Shown here: positions 24,495 through 46,984 of the stretch, in pieces
How the letters are laid out: each line of letters starts with the position of its first letter
How positions within the stretch are numbered: position 1 is the first letter of the stretch
Origin: an uncultured Pelagibacteraceae bacterium
GTDB taxonomy: Bacteria; Pseudomonadota; Alphaproteobacteria; Pelagibacterales; Pelagibacteraceae
Assembly: GCA_902565385.1 (NCBI GenBank)
Contig: CACFEW010000003.1
Span: forward strand, 1-64,000
DNA: 64,000 nt
Reading direction: 5' to 3'
Program-made: the position numbers and the translations under genes
The notes under the pieces: generated by a model
What the model saw: the letters and a program-made list of their open reading frames with translations, nothing else
Databases searched by the model: none
Told to the model about the DNA's origin: nothing

Positions 24495-24938
24495 ATGTTT
24501 TTATCAACCTACGAAAACAAATTAGACAAAAAAGGAAGGGTGTCAGTGCCGGCGAGCTTTAGATCTTATTTATCTAATTTAGGATACAATGGAGTTATTT
24601 GTTATCCATCATTTAACAATCAATCAATAGAAGCATGGCCCCAAGATAGAGTTGAGAAAATTTCAAATTCAATAGACACCTTAAATCCTTTTGAAGAAAA
24701 AAGAGATTTTTTTGCAACTTCAATATTATCAGAAAGCATAAATTTACAATTTGACAGCGAGGGAAGAATTTCACTTACGCCAAAATTATTAAAACATGCA
24801 AAAATTAAAAATAGCATGGTGTTTGTTGGTCAAGGCAAAACCTTTCAGATATGGGAACCAACAATTTTTGAAAAATTTAAGGTCACTGCAAGAAAAAAAG
24901 CAAATTTAAATCGTGCAAGTCTTAAATGGGAGCATTAA
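24495..24938 (+). CDS. mraZ: Transcriptional regulator MraZ
   Basis: 147 residues with two SpoVT/AbrB-type repeats: '[21 protein letters not shown]' at the N-terminus and '[19 protein letters not shown]' in the second half, both carrying the D-x-x-G-R DNA-contact signature. MraZ forms a ring and binds repeated TGGG boxes. Three such boxes lie 29-53 bp upstream. The start at 24495 is preceded by an AAAGGA ribosome site. It heads the division cluster, but the next gene is ftsZ rather than the usual rsmH. Confidence 0.95.
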
Positions 24939-24963
24939 CTTAAAAATAACGGGGGATAACGAA

Positions 24964-26430
24964 ATGACAATTAACTTTAAAACGCCAGAGATAAAAGAAT
25001 TACAACCTAGACTTTTAGTAATGGGAGTTGGTGGTGCAGGTGGAAATGCAATAAATGAAATGATTGAAAATGGAATGCAAGGAGTGGAATTCATTGCAGT
25101 TAATACTGATGCACAAGATCTAAAACATAGTAAAGCAAAATCAAAAATACAAATTGGTTTAAATTTAACTAAAGGTTTAGGGGCAGGTGCAAAAATTGAC
25201 ATAGGACAAGCTGCAGCCGATGAGTCTTTAAATGATATCGTTAATGTTTTACAAGGTGCAAATATGGTTTTTATAGCCGCTGGAATGGGCGGTGGAACAG
25301 GGACTGGTGCTGCACACGTAATTGCAAGAGCCGCTAAAGAATTAAATATTTTAACTGTTGGAGTAGTGACATTACCGTTTTTATATGAAGGCCCGTCAAG
25401 AATGAGAAGAGCTCAGATTGGTCTTGAGGAGTTAAGAAAACATGTTGATACTATTATTGTAATTCCCAATCAAAATTTATTTAAAATAGCGAATGAACAA
25501 ACTACTTTTGAAGAATCATTTAATCTTTCAAATAATGTTTTAATGCATGGTGTACAAAGTGTTACTGATTTAATGGTAAGACCAGGAATCATTAATTTAG
25601 ATTTTGCTGATGTTGAAACAGTTATGGCCTCGATGGGTAAAGCCATGATGGGAACAGGTGAAGCTGAAGGTGAGGGTAGATCCATGAAAGCTACAGAAAT
25701 GGCAATCAGCAATCCTTTAATTGATGACTATACTCTTAAGGGCGCAAAGGGATTACTTGTCAATATTACAGGTGGTAAAGACCTTAAATTATTTGAAGTT
25801 GATGAAGTAGTTAACAAAATAAGATCTGAGGTTGAGGCTGATGCCGAAGTAATTATAGGTGCAATTACTGACCCGTCTCTTGAAGGTAAAATAAGAGTAT
25901 CAATTGTTGCCACTGCTTTAGATGGACAACAACCAGAAACAAAATCAGTTATAAACATGGTACACAGGATTCAAAATAGAAATCCTGGATATTCTGATTT
26001 TTCAAATTTAGGATCTAATACTTCTTTTAATTTTTCAACTAGTACTCCTATTTCAAGTGGTGCTAATGCTTTAAAATTAGAGAATGAAATATCAACTGAA
26101 AATGTTAGTGAAACCGTTTCAACAGAGAATATTAATCAAATTAATGATCAATATCATGAGGAATTATTAAAGAACCAACAAGTTGAAAGTTTAGTTGAAA
26201 ACACTAAAGAAGATGAGGAAAGTTCTTTTACTAGAGAAGCTGTCGATGAATCACCTCAAGAAGATGAAATAAAAGATGATTTAAAGGAGTTTGGTGTGGA
26301 TAGGAATGCACCAGACTTATTTAGTTCTCAAGAAGAAACATCTTCAACAGAAAATCTTTTGTCCAAAGAAAATGAGGACCAAGAAGACGACTTAGAGATA
26401 CCAGCATTTTTAAGAAGACAAAAAAATTAA
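24964..26430 (+). CDS. ftsZ: Cell division GTPase FtsZ
   Basis: 488 residues from ATG 24964; a GTG frame extension to 24913 is rejected because GGGGGAT at 24950-24956 is a good ribosome site for 24964. N-terminal GTPase: '[15 protein letters not shown]' from 19, tubulin signature GGGTGTG at 109-115, then the T7 catalytic loop '[10 protein letters not shown]'. After about residue 330 comes a long acidic disordered linker, ending in the conserved tail '[10 protein letters not shown]'. It polymerises into the division ring. Position is unusual: between mraZ and rsmH instead of after ftsA. The tail normally docks FtsA, whose docking domain is missing from the ftsA-slot protein here. Confidence 0.97.
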
Positions 26431-26448
26431 TGGTCTTCGTAAAAATAA

Positions 26449-27459
26449 ATGGAAGCCACCATAGTACAGGATAAAACAAAACATTATCCAGTACTGCTAA
26501 AAGAAATTATTAGCATTATTACCCCTCAATATGGTGGCACATTTATCGACTGTACCTTTGGTCAAGGCGGTTACACTCGAGAAATTCTTAAGAACAAAAA
26601 CAACAAAGTTATTGGGTTTGATAGAGATTCTGAAAGTTTAAAAATTGCAAAAGAAATTGAAAAAAAATTTCCAGGAAGATTTAGCTTTAAAAATTTAAAT
26701 TTTAGTAAATTAGGAAATTTAAAACTCAAAGATGAAAACGTTCGAGGTGTATTATTTGATCTAGGTTATTCATTTACACAGATTAAAGATCCAAAAAAAG
26801 GATTGTCTTTTAATTCTAGAGGATCGTTGGATATGAGGATGGGTTTAAACGAATTTTCAGCTAAAGAAGCAATAAATAAATTAGATGGAAAAAGTCTTAT
26901 TAAAATTTTTAAATTTTTTGGTGACGAAAGAGATTCAAAACTAATCGTTAAGAATATTCTTAAAGATAGATTGTTAAAAGAAATAGATACCCCTCATTTA
27001 GTAAAAATTATTGAAAAATCAAAAAAAGGAAATAATAAAAAAATTCACCCTGCAACTAAAGTTTTTCAGGCATTAAGAATTTTTGTTAACAAGGAAATAA
27101 GTGAGCTAATTTATGGAATGATACATGCAGCTAAAGTTTTAAAAAAGGATGGTCTTTTGGTTATCGTAACTTTTCATTCTTTAGAAGATAAAATTGTAAA
27201 ATATTTCTTTAGAAGTCTTTCAGAACATAAAAGTGTATCTAGATACCAACCTGATAAAATACACGAGGAAATCTTATTTAAATTACATCAAAAAAAGCCA
27301 ATAGTGCCATCGACTCTAGAGCTTAAAGAAAACCCTCCTTCTAGGTCTGCAAAATTAAGGTGCTTAATAAAAAAGGAAAATATTTACGATTTTAAAACTG
27401 ATATTTTAGACAAATTTAAAGATTTAATTGAAATTGAAAATCTTGGACATAACTTATGA
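26449..27459 (+). CDS. rsmH: 16S rRNA (cytosine-1402-N4) methyltransferase
   Basis: 336 residues. '[10 protein letters not shown]', the SAM-binding '[16 protein letters not shown]', '[11 protein letters not shown]', 'RGSLDMRMG' and the C-terminal '[19 protein letters not shown]' and '[15 protein letters not shown]' are all RsmH (MraW) motifs, in order and of full length. It methylates N4 of C1402 in the ribosomal decoding centre. Starts 18 bp after ftsZ and overlaps ftsL by 4 bp. Confidence 0.97.
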
Positions 27460-29444: not shown

Positions 29445-32288
29445 ATGTTATTAGGCAATTATTTTAACAATATAGATAATAGTAAAAAAAAAATTTTTTT
29501 CTCAGGGATTTCATTCAATTCAAAAGATATTAAAAAAGATAATATTTTTTTTGCTATAAAAGGGAATAATTTTGATGGAAATAAATTCATTTCTATTGCA
29601 ATAAAAAAAGGCTCTAAAATTATTATAAGCGAGAGAAGAATAACAAATCCCCAAAAGGATATTTTATTCATTCATACAAAAAATATAAGAAAACTTTTAG
29701 CAGAAATCGCTTTTAAAATTTATAAGAATAAACCAAATAATTTAATTGCTGTAACTGGAACAAATGGAAAATCATCTGTTTCAGATTTTTATTTTCAATT
29801 GTTAAAACTTAATAAAATAAAAGTCGCCTCAATCGGAACATTAGGTGTAAAATCGAAAAATATAAGACGAAATTTACAAAATACTACGATAGACCCAATT
29901 CGAATGGGACAAATATTATCTAAATTAAAATCTCAAAAAATTAATAATGTAATTATGGAAGCATCCAGCCACGGTCTAACTCAACATAGGTTGGATGGTC
30001 TAAAGTTTTCATCTGGTATTTTCACAAATTTATCTCAAGATCACCTAGATTATCATAAAAATTTTAAAGAATATTTTAAAGCAAAACTGTACCTCTTTGA
30101 AAATTTGATAGGAAAGAAAGGAAATGTAATAACAGATGAAACATTACCAGAATTTAAAAGAATAAAAAAAATCGCAATTTCTAGAAAATTGAAATTGCAG
30201 GTTTTAAATAATAGCAAAAATCAATTTCAAATTTTATCTCATAGTTATAGAGGTGAGAAACAAATATTAAAAATTAGATACTATAATCTAACAAGAAAAA
30301 TAAATTTAAATCTTATCGGAAAAATACAATTAAAAAATATTTTAATGGCGATTATTGCAGCAAAAAATAGCAATATAAGTTTAATCAAGATTCTAAATGT
30401 TTTATCACAACTTAAGCCAATAGATGGAAGATTTGAAAAAATAGGTAAAATCAAAAATAGGTCTAAAGTAATACTTGATTATGCACACACACCAGATGCA
30501 CTAAGAATATGTCTTTCAAACCTTAAAGAGCAATTTCCAAATAAAAAAATAATTTTACTCTTTGGTTGTGGTGGAAATAGAGATCAAAATAAAAGATTTA
30601 AAATGGGAAAGATTGCATGTGATTATTCTAACGAAATTTATTTAACAGATGATAATCCTAGATTTGAAGATCCAAGAAAAATAAGAGATGATATTAAAAA
30701 GGGTATTCAAGACACTTCGATAAAAGAAATTCCTGATAGAAAAAAAGCTATTTCTGAGGCCATAAAAAATTTAAATACAGGTGATATTTTGTTGGTTGCT
30801 GGAAAAGGTCATGAGAAAACTCAAGATTTTGGTAAAAAGAAAATTTATTTTTCAGACAAAAAAATTATTTTAGATTGTATTAAACTTAAGAATACAAACT
30901 TATCAAAAAACTTTAAGATAAATATTATTAAAGAATTATCGAAAATCAAAAATAAAATTCCTTTAGTAAAAGCAGATAAAGCAAGAATTAACTCCAAAGA
31001 GGTAAATAAGAATGATATCTTTTTTGCTATTAAAGGAAAAAAAAATGATGGAAATGAATATATTGGAGAGGCATTTAAAAATAAAGCATCATTAGTTGTA
31101 GTAAATAAAGTTCAAAATAAATTTAATAGCAAACGTCAGATAAAAGTAAGAAATACATTAAAATTTATGACTGAAATTTCAAAAATATTTAGACAAAATA
31201 TCGATACAAATATTATAGCTATTACAGGAAGTTGTGGAAAAACTACTCTCAAAGAATTATTGGGCAATGTGTTAGGAAAGATTTCTAGTGTTAGTATTTC
31301 TCCAAAATCATATAACAATAAATTTGGAGTTCCATTAAGTTTACTTAATTTAAAACATAGTGATGAATTTGGAGTTTTAGAGGTTGGTATGGATAAAAAA
31401 GGGGAAATAGATAATTTAACAAATATTATAAAACCGAATGTTGGCTTGATAACTAACATAAATTATGCACATGCAAAAAATTTCAAAAATATCAAACAAA
31501 TTGCTTTAGCTAAAGCAGAGATAATTAAAAATATATTACCCAATGGTTTTGTTGTCTTGAATGCTGATGATAGTTTTTTCAAATTACATAAAAAAATTGC
31601 TGAAAATAATAATATTAATGTGATTTCTTTTGGGATTAAAACTAAAAAAGCAAATGTTAAGTTGTTTGATATTAAAAAAGTTAAAAAGGCATTTAAAATT
31701 AAAGTTAAACTTAATGATAAGTTTAAATATTTTATAATTTCTAATAATTTTCAAAGTAATATTTATAATATCTTAAGCGCTTTAAGTGTAATAAGTATTT
31801 ACAAAGATGTGCTTAAACTTAATGAAAAAATTTTCTTAGATTTTAGAAGTCCAGCAGGAAGAGGAGATCATTCTATAATAAAGATAGGTAACAAAAAAAT
31901 AAACTTAATTGATGAAAGTTATAATTCTAATCCTCTATCTTTAAAATCAGCCTTAAAAAATTATGACAATATAGATACAAAAAAATATCGTAAATATCTT
32001 TTGCTTGGAGATATGATGGAACTTGGTTCACATTCAAAAAAACTTCACCAATCAATAGTTCCTTTAATAAACGAGACAAATATTGATAAAGTATTTGTTA
32101 TGGGAAAAATGGTAAGAGAAATATTCGATAATATTGTGAAAGTAAAAAGAGGAAGAATTTTAGAAAATAAATCAGGAATTTTTGAATTAATTAAGAAAGA
32201 TTTCAATAATAATGATTATTTAATGATTAAAGCCTCAAATGCGACAGGTTTTAACAGTATAGTAAATAACTTGAAGGGTTTAAATTAA
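29445..32288 (+). CDS. murE/murF: MurE-MurF fusion: UDP-MurNAc-tripeptide and pentapeptide synthetase
   Basis: 947 residues encode two Mur ligases in one chain. The first half (1 to about 480) is MurE: 'TGTNGKS' at 104-110, 'HGLTQHRLDG', 'NLSQDHLDYH', and Asp403-Asn-Pro-Arg406, the motif associated with meso-diaminopimelate. The second half (about 490-947) is MurF: 'TGSCGKTT' from 594, 'SYNNKFGVPLSLLNL', and 'DESYNSNPLSLKSAL'. Both P-loops are intact. The product is UDP-MurNAc-pentapeptide made by two successive ligations. No stop or frameshift separates the halves. A similar N-terminal substrate-binding motif ('NDIFFAIKG') appears at both starts. Confidence 0.95.
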   Translation: MLLGNYFNNIDNSKKKIFFSGISFNSKDIKKDNIFFAIKGNNFDGNKFISIAIKKGSKIIISERRITNPQKDILFIHTKNIRKLLAEIAFKIYKNKPNNLIAVTGTNGKSSVSDFYFQLLKLNKIKVASIGTLGVKSKNIRRNLQNTTIDPIRMGQILSKLKSQKINNVIMEASSHGLTQHRLDGLKFSSGIFTNLSQDHLDYHKNFKEYFKAKLYLFENLIGKKGNVITDETLPEFKRIKKIAISRKLKLQVLNNSKNQFQILSHSYRGEKQILKIRYYNLTRKINLNLIGKIQLKNILMAIIAAKNSNISLIKILNVLSQLKPIDGRFEKIGKIKNRSKVILDYAHTPDALRICLSNLKEQFPNKKIILLFGCGGNRDQNKRFKMGKIACDYSNEIYLTDDNPRFEDPRKIRDDIKKGIQDTSIKEIPDRKKAISEAIKNLNTGDILLVAGKGHEKTQDFGKKKIYFSDKKIILDCIKLKNTNLSKNFKINIIKELSKIKNKIPLVKADKARINSKEVNKNDIFFAIKGKKNDGNEYIGEAFKNKASLVVVNKVQNKFNSKRQIKVRNTLKFMTEISKIFRQNIDTNIIAITGSCGKTTLKELLGNVLGKISSVSISPKSYNNKFGVPLSLLNLKHSDEFGVLEVGMDKKGEIDNLTNIIKPNVGLITNINYAHAKNFKNIKQIALAKAEIIKNILPNGFVVLNADDSFFKLHKKIAENNNINVISFGIKTKKANVKLFDIKKVKKAFKIKVKLNDKFKYFIISNNFQSNIYNILSALSVISIYKDVLKLNEKIFLDFRSPAGRGDHSIIKIGNKKINLIDESYNSNPLSLKSALKNYDNIDTKKYRKYLLLGDMMELGSHSKKLHQSIVPLINETNIDKVFVMGKMVREIFDNIVKVKRGRILENKSGIFELIKKDFNNNDYLMIKASNATGFNSIVNNLKGLN

Positions 32289-39146: not shown

Positions 39147-40061
39147 TTGAAAAAAAAAATTTTGATAATCTCAGGTGGTATTTCTAAGGAAAGAATTATC
39201 AGCTTGGAGACAGGAAGACAGGTTGCTAAAGAACTAAAAAAAAATAATTATAAAGTAAAAATATGCGAGCCAGACAAAGATTTAATATCTGTAACAAAAA
39301 GTTTCAAACCTCACTTCATTTTTAATGCTCTACATGGGCAGTTTGGAGAAGATGGATATATACAAACAATCCTTGAGACAATAGGTATACCTTATACCCA
39401 TTCAGGTGTGATTGCCTCTGCCAAGGCAATGGATAAAGAAATTTCCAAAAAAATTTTTATTAAAAATAAAATTTTAACACCTAAATATTTAATTTTTACT
39501 TTTAATAAAACTAATAAAGAACTTATAAGTTTAGTAAAAAAAAAGTTGAACTTTCCTGTTGTAATAAAACCAATTAATGAAGGTTCTAGTGTAAATGTTT
39601 ATATTTGTACCAAGAATAATTTATCGAGAAAGATAAAATTATTAAAAGATTATAAAAAAATATTGATAGAACAATTTATTCCCGGGAGAGAAATACAATC
39701 AGCTATAATTGGAAAGAAAAAGCTCGGAGCAATTGAACTTAAGCCGAAAAGAAAATTTTATGATTACCAGGCAAAATACAATTCTAATGCTAAAACAGAG
39801 CATATAATTCCGGTAGACCTGCCAAAGAAAAAATATAAAGCTCTTATGGACATTACTTTTAAAGCACATAATTTGATGGGATGTAGAGGTGTTACTAGAT
39901 CAGACTTTAAATATTTTAAAGGAAAATTTTATCTTTTAGAAATTAATACTCAACCTGGAATGACAAAACTATCTTTAGTTCCAGAGATATCAGCTTATAT
40001 TGGAATTAATTTCTTAAATTTAATTAAATTAATTTTAAAAGATGCATCTATTAATAAGTAA
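39147..40061 (+). CDS. ddl: D-alanine:D-alanine ligase
   Basis: 304 residues of ATP-grasp fold. 'ISGGISKERIISL' (usually G-G-x-S-x-E), 'FNALHGQFGEDG', 'PYTHSGVIASAKAMDK', 'GSSVNVY' and 'EINTQPGMT' are Ddl landmarks. The start is TTG at 39147, one base after murB's stop; no ATG is placed better. It makes the D-Ala-D-Ala dipeptide used by MurF. Overlaps ftsQ by 20 bp. Confidence 0.93.
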   Translation: MKKKILIISGGISKERIISLETGRQVAKELKKNNYKVKICEPDKDLISVTKSFKPHFIFNALHGQFGEDGYIQTILETIGIPYTHSGVIASAKAMDKEISKKIFIKNKILTPKYLIFTFNKTNKELISLVKKKLNFPVVIKPINEGSSVNVYICTKNNLSRKIKLLKDYKKILIEQFIPGREIQSAIIGKKKLGAIELKPKRKFYDYQAKYNSNAKTEHIIPVDLPKKKYKALMDITFKAHNLMGCRGVTRSDFKYFKGKFYLLEINTQPGMTKLSLVPEISAYIGINFLNLIKLILKDASINK

Positions 40062-40716
40062 AAAAATTGTAGTTTACTTTTTAATGTTTTGTTTTCTTGT
40101 ATCAATAAATAATATTTCATTCATGAATGTTAGTTTTCCAAAAATTAGCGAGGTAGAGATAAATGGTTTAAACCCAGATGAAAGAAAAAAAATTGAAGAT
40201 ATTATTTATGATTCTAATTTTAAAAATATTTTTTATTTAGATAAAGAATATTTAAAAAGAAAGATCAATTCAATTAATATTATTGAACAATTTGAAATAT
40301 TTAAAAATTATCCATCAACTTTAAAAATCTTTATAGAAAAAACAGAAATACTTGCACAAACAAAAAAAAATGGTTTTGATTATTTGATTGGATCAAATGG
40401 AAAGTTAATTGAAAATAAAGATTTCATATTAGAACTACCTTTTATATTTGGTGATTTAGACATTTCAGAGTTTCTTAAGTTAAAAAGTAAAATTGATAGC
40501 TCACTTTTTGAATTTAGTGAAATTTCGAACTTATATATATATAAATCAAAGAGGTGGGATATTGAAACTCTAAATGGAAATTTAATAAAACTTCCAAAAA
40601 ATAACATTGAGGAAATATTAAATTTGTATGTTCGAATGTCTAATGAAAAAAGAATTAATAAAAAAACAATTGTCGACTTTCGCCAAAAAAATCAAATCAT
40701 ATTAAATGAAAAGTAG
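40042..40716 (+). CDS. ftsQ: Cell division protein FtsQ
   Basis: 224 residues: one N-terminal membrane helix (about 8-28), a POTRA domain beginning 'ISEVEINGLNPDERKKI', and the beta domain with 'IFKNYPSTLKIFIEKTEILA', equivalent to the FtsQ 'V.r.wP..l.i.v.E..p.A' signature. It recruits FtsL/FtsB and the late divisome from the periplasm. Overlaps ddl and the following ftsA-slot gene (11 bp). Slightly shorter than typical FtsQ. Confidence 0.9.
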   Translation: MHLLISKKIVVYFLMFCFLVSINNISFMNVSFPKISEVEINGLNPDERKKIEDIIYDSNFKNIFYLDKEYLKRKINSINIIEQFEIFKNYPSTLKIFIEKTEILAQTKKNGFDYLIGSNGKLIENKDFILELPFIFGDLDISEFLKLKSKIDSSLFEFSEISNLYIYKSKRWDIETLNGNLIKLPKNNIEEILNLYVRMSNEKRINKKTIVDFRQKNQIILNEK

Positions 40717-41407
40717 TTCTGTTAATAAAACATTCATTTTCGTAAGTTCAAATAAATTTATAATTATATCACTTGGTGAAGCAAATAAAATTAATTATAA
40801 AAAAGAAACTATTTTTAAAAATCAAAATACAAAATTTGATCTGGATCTATTCAGTGAATTTTTAAATGAAAACATTTTTAAAATTGAAAAAGAATTGGGT
40901 GAATTCATTAAAATTATCTATTTAATAATCGAAAATGAGGAAATTTTTTCAGTTGATTTTTCAATAAAAAATAAAATTAATGATACGCCTCTAAATGCAA
41001 AAATAATTAATAATCTGTTAATAGAAGCAAAGAATTATTGCGAAGAAACTTTAAAAAAATCAGAAGTTATTCATATGAAAATTGATCAATTTAATATTGA
41101 TAATGAACAATATAATTTTTTACCTGATAAAGATACCTGTAAGAGTTTATCTTTGGATCTAAGTTTTATATGTATACCCAATAATGTATTGAACAATTTT
41201 GAAAAAGTATTAAACAAATTCCAGATATCTATTTATAGGACAATTAGTTATCAGTACCTTTATAGCTTTTTAAACATTGACAGCAATAATTTAGAATTAG
41301 TTGTGCAAAAAATTCTGACCGGTTTTAACGAAAATGAAGTGATTTTAATGAAAAAAAAACCTAAGAATCCTGGTTTTTTTGAGAAATTTTTCAATTTTTT
41401 CAATTAA
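40706..41407 (+). CDS. ftsA: Minimal FtsA-like protein lacking the ATPase half
   Basis: 233 residues where full FtsA has about 400. Residues about 10-75 follow FtsA subdomain 1A, but the nucleotide loop is degenerate ('SLGEANKI' where FtsA has a G-T pair). Residues about 95-195 align by eye with subdomain 1C and the return to 1A: 'IHMKIDQFNIDNEQ' against E. coli 'LHVIPQEYAIDYQE', and 'NNFEKVLNKFQISIYRTISY' against the 'VKAVERCGLKVDQ' region. Subdomains 2A/2B, with the ATP site and FtsZ-docking surface, are absent. The last 10 residues (GFFEKFFNFF) form an amphipathic, FtsA-like membrane anchor. The frame is intact, sits in the ftsA slot between ftsQ and lpxC, and overlaps ftsQ, so it looks functional rather than decayed. 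Confidence 0.72.
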   Translation: MKSSSVNKTFIFVSSNKFIIISLGEANKINYKKETIFKNQNTKFDLDLFSEFLNENIFKIEKELGEFIKIIYLIIENEEIFSVDFSIKNKINDTPLNAKIINNLLIEAKNYCEETLKKSEVIHMKIDQFNIDNEQYNFLPDKDTCKSLSLDLSFICIPNNVLNNFEKVLNKFQISIYRTISYQYLYSFLNIDSNNLELVVQKILTGFNENEVILMKKKPKNPGFFEKFFNFFN

Positions 41408-41470
41408 TTTGTATTTTCTCGTAATATTTGTTGTTTTTAATTTAATGAGACTCAGGATTAATAGTAAGGC

Positions 41471-42391
41471 GTGTCTTTATTAAACCAAAAAACAATTAAA
41501 AAAAAAGTCTCCTTTAGCGGGATAGGTCTTCACAGTGGTAAGATAGTTAAGATTTGTATTAAACCTTCTGAGCCAGATACTGGAATTGTTTTCAAAAGAG
41601 TAGATTTAAAAGAAAATAATATTATTTATCCAAATTTCATGAACGTGAGTAATACAGCTCTTTGTACAACTATAAGCAATAGTTATGGCGCAAAAGTTTC
41701 AACAATTGAACATTTAATGGGAGCATTATTCGGACTTGGAATTGATAATGCTTTGGTAGAAATCGATAATGAGGAAGTTCCAATTTTAGATGGATCAGCC
41801 AAGTTGTTTATAAATGAAATTTTATCAGTAGGTTTAGAATCAAGTAATAAACCTATTAAGATCATAAAAATAAACAGAAAAGTAGAATTTAAAAATGATA
41901 ATAAGTTTATTACAATCGAACCTTCAAAGTTAAGTCTAGATATAGATTTTCAACTTAAGTACCAAAATCAAACTATTGGTAGCCAAAGAAATAAGATTAA
42001 CGTTTATGAGGATAATCTTGAAGAAATTTTTAATTCAAGAACATTTTGTTTATACGAGGATATTGAAGCAATTAAGAAAAATGGTCTAGCAAAAGGTGGA
42101 AGTTTAGAAAATGCGATAGTTGTTAAAGGAGAAAATATTTTAAATCCAGATGGTTTAAGAAATACGAAAGAATTTGTAAATCATAAAATTTTAGATTGTA
42201 TTGGTGATCTTTTTACCAGCGGATACAGAATGATAGCAAGTGTAAACTGTTCTCAGGGAGGTCACTTCATGACAAATAGTTTATTACGAAAAGTATTTGA
42301 AAATAAAGAAAATTTTTCAATTATTGAAATTCAAGAGAGAACACTACCTCATACATTAATTAACAGAAGCTTATTTAGATCAATCGCTTGA
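41471..42391 (+). CDS. lpxC: UDP-3-O-acyl-N-acetylglucosamine deacetylase LpxC
   Basis: 306 residues from GTG 41471. Zinc ligands His81 ('TIEHLMG'), His238 and Asp242 ('NHKILD') fall almost exactly at E. coli numbering, and 'GGHF' supplies the catalytic His. It commits UDP-acyl-GlcNAc to lipid A synthesis, implying an LPS-type outer membrane. In other alphaproteobacteria ftsZ usually precedes lpxC; here the mini-ftsA does. Confidence 0.96.
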   Translation: MSLLNQKTIKKKVSFSGIGLHSGKIVKICIKPSEPDTGIVFKRVDLKENNIIYPNFMNVSNTALCTTISNSYGAKVSTIEHLMGALFGLGIDNALVEIDNEEVPILDGSAKLFINEILSVGLESSNKPIKIIKINRKVEFKNDNKFITIEPSKLSLDIDFQLKYQNQTIGSQRNKINVYEDNLEEIFNSRTFCLYEDIEAIKKNGLAKGGSLENAIVVKGENILNPDGLRNTKEFVNHKILDCIGDLFTSGYRMIASVNCSQGGHFMTNSLLRKVFENKENFSIIEIQERTLPHTLINRSLFRSIA

Positions 42392-42439
42392 TTAAATAAT
42401 CATCTTTAAAATTTTTTTCTTAGTATATATAATTGTAAT

Positions 42440-43273
42440 ATGTCTAAATTTAAAATTAGATTAATTTTCATCCTCATTTTACTTTTAAATTCCTGCAGTA
42501 AAAATGTAGAAGAAGTCAAATTAATTAAAGAAACTAGTCAAAATGAAGAAATGATTACTGCTTATCAAAAAGGCATGAGTTATATGGAGACAGGTGATTA
42601 TTTTGCAGCAAGTAAAAAATTCTTAGAGGTAGAAATTTTATTACCCCAATCTCAATGGGCACCAAAATCAGTTTTAATGGCATCATATTCTTACTATCTT
42701 CAAAATTATTATTCTTTAGCAATAGAAAACCTCAAAAGATATTTCAAAACTTATCCACAAGATAAGAATATGGCCTACGCACATTATCTTTTAGCAATGT
42801 GTTATTATGAAACTATTGAAGGTGAAAAAAAAGATTTGGCACCTTTAATCGCATCCAAAAAAGAATTAATTTTTGTTGTCGAAAATTACCCTGAAACTGA
42901 TTATGCTTATGATGCAAGATATAAGATTGATTTAATCAATGATATATTAGCCGCTAAAGAAGTTTATATTGGAAGACATTATATAAAAAAAAAAAAATGG
43001 ATACCGGCTCTTAATAGATTCAAAAACGTGCTTAAAAATTATGAAACTACAGATCATGTAGAGGAAGCAATTCATAGATTGGTGGAAATATATTATATAT
43101 TAGGCATGGAGGAAGAGTCTCTAAAATATGCATCATTGTTGGGCTATAATTATAATTCAGGAGAATGGTACAAAGAAACTTATAAAATTTTTAATAAAGA
43201 ATATAAAGTATCACTTCCAAATAAAAAAAAGAAAAAAAGTAAAATCCTAAGTAAAATAAAAAGTCTTTTTTAA
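42440..43273 (+). CDS. bamD: Outer-membrane assembly lipoprotein BamD
   Basis: 277 residues. Signal peptide with lipobox ('LLLNSC') giving a lipid-modified Cys at about residue 19, then five TPR-like helical pairs ('AYQKGMSYMETGDYFAASKKF', 'APKSVLMASYSYYL' and so on). It is a subunit of the BAM complex that inserts beta-barrels. Immediately before ligA; the recN often found between them in relatives is absent. Confidence 0.93.
   Translation: MSKFKIRLIFILILLLNSCSKNVEEVKLIKETSQNEEMITAYQKGMSYMETGDYFAASKKFLEVEILLPQSQWAPKSVLMASYSYYLQNYYSLAIENLKRYFKTYPQDKNMAYAHYLLAMCYYETIEGEKKDLAPLIASKKELIFVVENYPETDYAYDARYKIDLINDILAAKEVYIGRHYIKKKKWIPALNRFKNVLKNYETTDHVEEAIHRLVEIYYILGMEEESLKYASLLGYNYNSGEWYKETYKIFNKEYKVSLPNKKKKKSKILSKIKSLF

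Positions 43274-46984
<3,711 letters not shown>

Follow-up and report, generated by a model that had tools for sequence, protein, structure and literature searches.

Does the short open reading frame (ORF) that stands in the place of ftsA in a stretch of DNA from an uncultured Pelagibacteraceae bacterium encode a genuine FtsA, and, if it does, what could such a protein still do in cell division? The question touches on two that are open in the field: for what reason an ATPase of the actin fold serves in the divisome, and which functions of FtsA are essential. The stretch analyzed here, called the window, comprises 64,000 nucleotides of contig CACFEW010000003.1 (assembly GCA_902565385.1).

Genomic context of the short gene

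The dcw cluster of Pelagibacteraceae contains the order ddl-ftsQ-ftsA-lpxC, and in the window the ftsA slot is occupied by a short ORF. The complete order in the window is mraZ-ftsZ-rsmH-ftsL-ftsI-murEF-mraY-murD-ftsW-murG-murC-murB-ddl-ftsQ-[short ftsA]-lpxC-bamD, with gene names taken from the sequences and from similarity and with ftsQ tested against Pfam. The ORF starts with ATG. Its frame between ftsQ and lpxC is intact, as the sequence-only reading had it. The genes that matter here are the following.

24964..26430, + strand: ftsZ, between mraZ and rsmH, ~16 kb upstream of the short ftsA (PF00091, E=5e-49)
40042..40716, + strand: ftsQ, the upstream neighbor, with an 11-bp overlap with the short ftsA (Pfam FtsQ_DivIB_C, E=3e-9; POTRA_1, E=1e-6)
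40706..41407, + strand: short ftsA, 233 aa, with 1A, 1C, and an amphipathic tail and with lobe 2 absent (ORF, profiles, AlphaFold model)
41471..42391, + strand: lpxC, the downstream neighbor (order kept in all relatives in which the region is covered)

The region from 24495 to 26460 places ftsZ between mraZ and rsmH and not 3' of ftsA, and ftsZ likewise stands immediately 5' of rsmH in the sister family. Farther along the cluster (29445 to 32288), MurE and MurF are encoded on a single 947-aa ORF in the window's genus; the matching ORF in the other family is only 472 to 478 aa long.

Identity of the short protein as FtsA

The best NCBIfam match of the 233-aa protein, and its sole meaningful one, is ftsA (TIGR01174, E=2.5e-4), with residues 45 to 184 of the protein collinear with positions 45 to 182 of the model. 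The score of 20.2 bits lies below the curated equivalog cut-off of 175.85 bits, as do the scores of most long FtsA proteins of the SAR11 order. Annotations of short-form genomes that call ftsA absent would be wrong, because the short gene scores far under curated cut-offs. A Pfam search with the 233-aa protein alone gave no match, including none to the SepF domain (PF04472). TIGR01174 is matched by 58 of 72 short orthologs (lowest E=5e-11), and SHS2_FTSA (PF02491), the FtsA-specific model of 1C, is matched by 18.

Comparisons based on the whole set of orthologs point the same way. A short-form profile run against solved structures has FtsA on top (7q6d, E=0.0016), and hhalign joins the short and long same-genus profiles across residues 5 to 190 with E=4e-34. 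An AlphaFold2 (AF2) model built from the 72 orthologs (pLDDT 83.6, pTM 0.79) was compared with the PDB by Foldseek, and the 19 best matches are without exception FtsA (E from 3e-14 to 3e-10; TM relative to the query, at most 0.66), with PilM next in line. The model, the Foldseek matches, and the profile matches all place a 1C (SHS2) subdomain inserted into 1A. The homology to 1A and 1C proposed earlier by eye is thereby borne out, and these data show that the ORF at 40706 to 41407 is a real half-size FtsA, an ftsA ortholog minus lobe 2.

Retained and missing parts

With subdomain boundaries adopted from the FtsA literature, the short gene is divided as follows.

40727..40933, + strand: opening part of subdomain 1A (residues 8-76), with three strands, a helix (46-64), and a strand (70-75) (AF2 secondary structure, motif tally, hhalign)
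40946..41179, + strand: subdomain 1C/SHS2, residues 81-158 (profile matches, AF2)
41180..41269, + strand: return part of 1A, with helix 159-170, strand 175-181, and helix 182-188 (short-form profile, AF2)
41261..41290, + strand: excision junction, residues 186-195, where lobe 2 is missing relative to the long forms (two-segment long-profile matches without a DNA gap)
41291..41341, + strand: final helix of 1A (196-205), then the conserved motif G-x-N-x-N-E-V (206-212) (profile, AF2, conservation)
41372..41404, + strand: C-terminal amphipathic helix GFFEKFFNFFN, the putative membrane anchor (hydrophobic moment [muH] 0.66, lowest entropy, model helix 224-232)

The short form thus resembles known FtsA (TIGR01174; PDB 1e4f, 4a2a, and 7q6i) in its ftsQ-lpxC locus, its 1A and 1C fold, the last 1A helix, and the C-terminal amphipathic helix but differs from it in having no 2A, no 2B, and no phosphate-2 or adenosine motif and in having a degenerate phosphate-1 motif. 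The long FtsA proteins of sister SAR11 species (369 to 401 aa; e.g., G463 and G423) share the slot, a GFFEKxFxFF tail, and an alignable 1A and 1C with the short form; unlike it, they keep lobe 2 (PF14450) and all three nucleotide motifs.

The boundaries of the missing segment are sharp. Against a profile of the genus's long FtsA (390 positions), the short genes match in two pieces, one from ~1-3 to ~184-188 and one from ~345 to 389, which abut in the DNA (249663-250217 followed by 250218-250355 in G452:C1; 289604-290155 followed by 290156-290293 in G319). Relative to the long forms, ~155 to 160 residues are missing, and the distances across the ftsQ-lpxC slot are bimodal (688 to 770 versus 1133 to 1259 bp, with none intermediate). 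Because the lobe-2 family PF14450 is found in 9/9 long relatives and in 0/72 short orthologs, the segment is identified as lobe 2 (2A and 2B), which carries the nucleotide site and has been excised cleanly. The motifs follow the same division: the phosphate-1 D-x-G is present in 29/29 long sequences versus stray matches in 3/114 short ones (it reads V-S-S within residues 8-76 in the window), G-x-G-S is present in 28/29 versus 0/114, and the actin-type set of phosphate-1, phosphate-2, and adenosine motifs is not found in the short form. An R-x-x-E-I motif near the 2B pocket, invariant in nine long sequences, is gone as well. The earlier statement that 2A, 2B, and a usable nucleotide site are missing is therefore upheld.

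The tail is the least variable part of the protein, with a mean entropy of 0.49 bits versus 1.3 to 2.5 elsewhere; the 1A helix also ranks among the most conserved parts, and the excision junction is the least conserved segment. The hydrophobic moment of the tail exceeds that of the E. coli tail (0.57), in agreement with the amphipathic tail described from the sequence and with a putative membrane-targeting helix, which the AF2 model renders at low pLDDT (47 to 59). The sequence-only reading went too far in one respect: 1C and the anchor are indeed kept, but they are not all that is kept, as the whole of 1A, including its last helix, is retained.

Some variation in size exists among the short forms, which are 220 to 223 aa long in G106, G136, and G447, and ~11 residues of 1C are missing in G106. 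In another Pelagibacteraceae genus (g5; loci L285 to L289), FtsA is full length (about 400 aa) and its D-x-G and second phosphate motifs look degenerate, which looks like loss of the nucleotide site without loss of the lobe.

Distribution of the short form

Extending the search to other SAR11 genomes, we found the short form to be common in the window's genus. The 82 other same-genus genomes that are at least 92% complete comprise 52 with the short form (some of them cut at contig ends or frameshifted), 24 with the long form, 3 with fragments only, and 3 (G131, G142, and G192) with no match to either the short or the long FtsA profile. Short ORFs occur in well over 100 of the 399 sampled genomes. 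Named Pelagibacteraceae loci number 80, and 71 of these yield an intact short ORF; the named matches are all from SAR11 (Pelagibacteraceae or Pelagibacterales) and mostly from single-cell genomes. Both forms are represented by single-contig genomes (G321, G106, G408, G429, and G012 for the short form; G463 and G423 for the long form). A half-size FtsA is carried by many species of this genus.

The eight other matched Pelagibacteraceae genera have long frames (378 to 430 aa, except for one cut at a contig end), and the other family of the order, the sister family, also has a long FtsA. Because all of these have long forms, the long form is taken as ancestral and the short form as derived and, in our sample, confined to one genus.

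Selection on the short gene and alternative explanations

An assembly or sequencing artefact, or a split gene with lobe 2 encoded elsewhere, might be suspected from the state of the window's own genome, which is 67% complete and in 50 contigs. However, the same short gene is present in many single-cell genomes and in several single-contig genomes, and relatives show an intact gene of 220 to 246 aa and not a frameshifted long one. Searches of short-form genomes for lobe 2 returned only MreB (four confirmed) and, as weak matches, frames of ~640 to 650 aa taken as DnaK, with no second or split FtsA, and in the five single-contig short-form genomes the short copy is the sole FtsA, a full-length ftsA being found nowhere else in them. 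An artefact or split gene is scarcely credible on these grounds and was rejected. None of the three outcomes named beforehand as refuting the sequence-only reading (no structural match to FtsA, a full-length ftsA elsewhere in the genome, or a frameshifted long gene in relatives) was observed. Replacement of ftsA in its slot by a 1C-containing actin-fold protein akin to PilM or GspL is also very unlikely. These two are the next structural matches after FtsA: PilM, the actin-like protein of type IV pili, has the same 1A-1C arrangement and binds the cytoplasmic tail of a bitopic partner in the 1A-1C cleft (PMC7613929), and the cytoplasmic domain of GspL (T2SS) is likewise an actin-like domain docking a partner protein (4pht_Y, E=1.7e-5). 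However, FtsA matches better by two to six orders of magnitude. PilM, unlike the short protein, has two lobes and nucleotide binding, lacks a divisome locus, and gives a weaker match to the model (E about 1e-7), and GspL is a weak match from another locus and system. The slot and the tail motif are common to the short form and its long relatives, and a tree of 1A plus 1C groups the long forms of G463 and its relatives beside the short forms, within the genus. Neither the fold match nor the locus is closer to PilM than to FtsA, and this candidate was set aside.

A decaying remnant, with FtsA dispensable in the genus and the short gene heading for loss, would fit several observations. Of the cluster genes, ftsA and ftsQ evolve fastest (median identity, 0.32 to 0.38), the frame is shifted in single-contig G012 and disrupted in G164 and G448, and three near-complete genomes have no match. 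However, ftsA and ftsQ are fastest in the short and long classes alike, and the long forms change just as fast, so the rate of evolution does not set the short form apart. Of the 46 short-form loci examined, 43 have an intact frame; invariant residues are present across the 72 short orthologs; and pairwise dN/dS values among close short orthologs are mostly 0.11 to 0.27 at constant length (233 aa), the higher values, to 0.38, coming from a small number of pairs that are either divergent or almost identical. We consider decay improbable, and a pseudogene reading was rejected given the low dN/dS, the constant length, and the intact loci; the pattern shows that the short ftsA is kept by purifying selection. 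In G012 (L019, a single contig of 1,343,202 bp), the gene at ~1430 to 2130 is frameshifted at a TTTTTTTAAAAAAAA run, which may be a sequencing error, slippage, or a real loss.

The FtsZ tail and other divisome proteins

In canonical systems, the C-terminal peptide of FtsZ docks in 2B of FtsA (4a2a). The corresponding peptide in the window is as follows.

26386..26427, + strand: C-terminal peptide of FtsZ, normally bound by 2B of FtsA (essentially invariant in 40 short-form and 22 long-form genomes)

The end of FtsZ, D/E-[LF]-EIPAFLRRQ, hardly differs among these genomes, with or without 2B. Deletion of 2B has been found to abolish FtsZ binding, with 1C serving self-interaction and recruitment of FtsQ and FtsN (PMC4281207). 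The absence of 2B that the sequence-only reading reported is confirmed, but a loss of FtsZ docking along with 2B goes beyond the evidence, the FtsZ tail being essentially invariant.

Searches of 20 near-complete same-genus genomes, from the short and long classes, detected no ZipA, SepF, FtsX_ECD, or SPOR-type FtsN. This fits the simplified divisome suggested earlier, a reading that nevertheless goes further than the evidence: the same proteins are missing from the long-form relatives too. These nondetections and the invariance of the FtsZ tail regardless of 2B are new relative to that reading.

The SPOR matches that did appear are lipoproteins beside a dacC-like gene and not FtsN. At L277 (976 to 1728) and in its homologs (L274 to L280), an RlpA-like SPOR lipoprotein is encoded between mltB-like and dacC-like genes. 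It was above the threshold in 7/11 short-form versus 0/9 long-form genomes, a difference that is probably due to divergence around the threshold, and an association of SPOR proteins with the short form was dropped on account of the identity of the matches.

A proposed role for the short FtsA

In gamma-proteobacterial FtsA, the tail of FtsN binds in the IA-IC cleft, the longitudinal contacts are between IIA and IIB, the lateral interface is 1C, and the membrane anchor is the C-terminal amphipathic helix (PMC7613929). Those proteins form the cleft and the lateral interface from the same region that is retained here, namely, 1A and 1C with the anchor. We infer that the short FtsA probably acts as a nucleotide-independent, membrane-bound divisome adaptor that arose by excision of lobe 2, with the FtsZ tail received by another protein or by a new site. 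The excision joined the end of the second segment of 1A, with nothing between, to the final 1A helix and the membrane tail; the product would fold as a single-lobe half-actin. Such a protein would have no ATP binding between lobes, no IIA-IIB longitudinal contact and hence no polymerization, and no 2B pocket for the FtsZ tail. With its C-terminal tail in the inner membrane, the protein would use the 1A-1C cleft or the 1C surface to hold the cytoplasmic portion of a membrane protein of the divisome; FtsQ, FtsK, or FtsW is the most plausible candidate, since SPOR-type FtsN was not detected. The FtsZ tail would then have to dock on a different protein or at a novel site of the short FtsA itself.

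Several points speak against the adaptor reading. The best-known ligand of the cleft, FtsN, may not exist here; part of the conservation of 1C could come from fold stability only; the tail helix is modeled with low confidence; and the FtsZ tail is as conserved in short- as in long-form genomes, which would be unexpected in cells that no longer tether FtsZ. This last point favors a reading in which the short FtsA still tethers FtsZ, the FtsZ tail having moved to a new site on 1A or 1C, perhaps the surface bared by the loss of lobe 2, so that the protein would be a minimal anchor comparable to SepF or ZipA, which would be functional analogues with unrelated folds. The nondetection of ZipA, SepF, and FtsX_ECD leaves no other known tether, and the membrane helix is the best-conserved segment. 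However, the 2B pocket and the nearby R-x-x-E-I motif are gone, and genomes with 2B show the same invariance of the FtsZ tail, so the constraint need not stem from the short FtsA. We regard continued tethering as somewhat unlikely and prefer the adaptor reading. More tentatively, it is possible that a free-living SAR11 genus divides with an ATP-independent, non-actin half-FtsA and that a receptor new to bacteria, either an unrecognized protein or a novel site of the half-FtsA, holds the tail of its FtsZ.

If division with a half-FtsA is real, it concerns one of the most abundant bacterial groups of the ocean. The genus offers a natural experiment in which dozens of species have lost, in one piece, the nucleotide site together with the interface for longitudinal filaments and the pocket for FtsZ. 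Close sister species retain all of these, and the FtsZ tail is unchanged. Some of the complete genomes are probably those of cultured isolates; therefore, pairs of short-form and long-form strains can be used to test the predictions of the adaptor reading, namely, that the protein binds membranes but not ATP and forms no filaments and that FtsZ has a different receptor. No paper on a short SAR11 ftsA was found in the open-access journal literature combining FtsA with SAR11 or Pelagibacter.

History of the excision

In a tree built from eight dcw proteins, the starred branches force four changes for the short class. On the gene tree of 1A plus 1C, which has the better model, all short forms make up one clade (support 73/84, not starred), with the long forms of the G463 type as sister. 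Four independent deletions, as suggested by the dcw-gene tree, were accordingly dropped as a claim in view of the single, weakly supported short clade. The length across the junction is nearly equal among the short forms compared (29 to 30 residues), and, because of this and the single 1A-plus-1C clade, one excision spread by recombination is equally possible; the short class may have come about in that way or by several excisions. A tree of lobe 2 only gave no sign of regain of lobe 2. Between the window and G294 (L088), DNA identity is 98 to 99% over the mur genes to about 39.9 kb, falls to about 62% over ftsQ-ftsA, and is ~70 to 85% beyond (39900 to 43500 compared), and a recombination boundary is visible at ddl/ftsQ.
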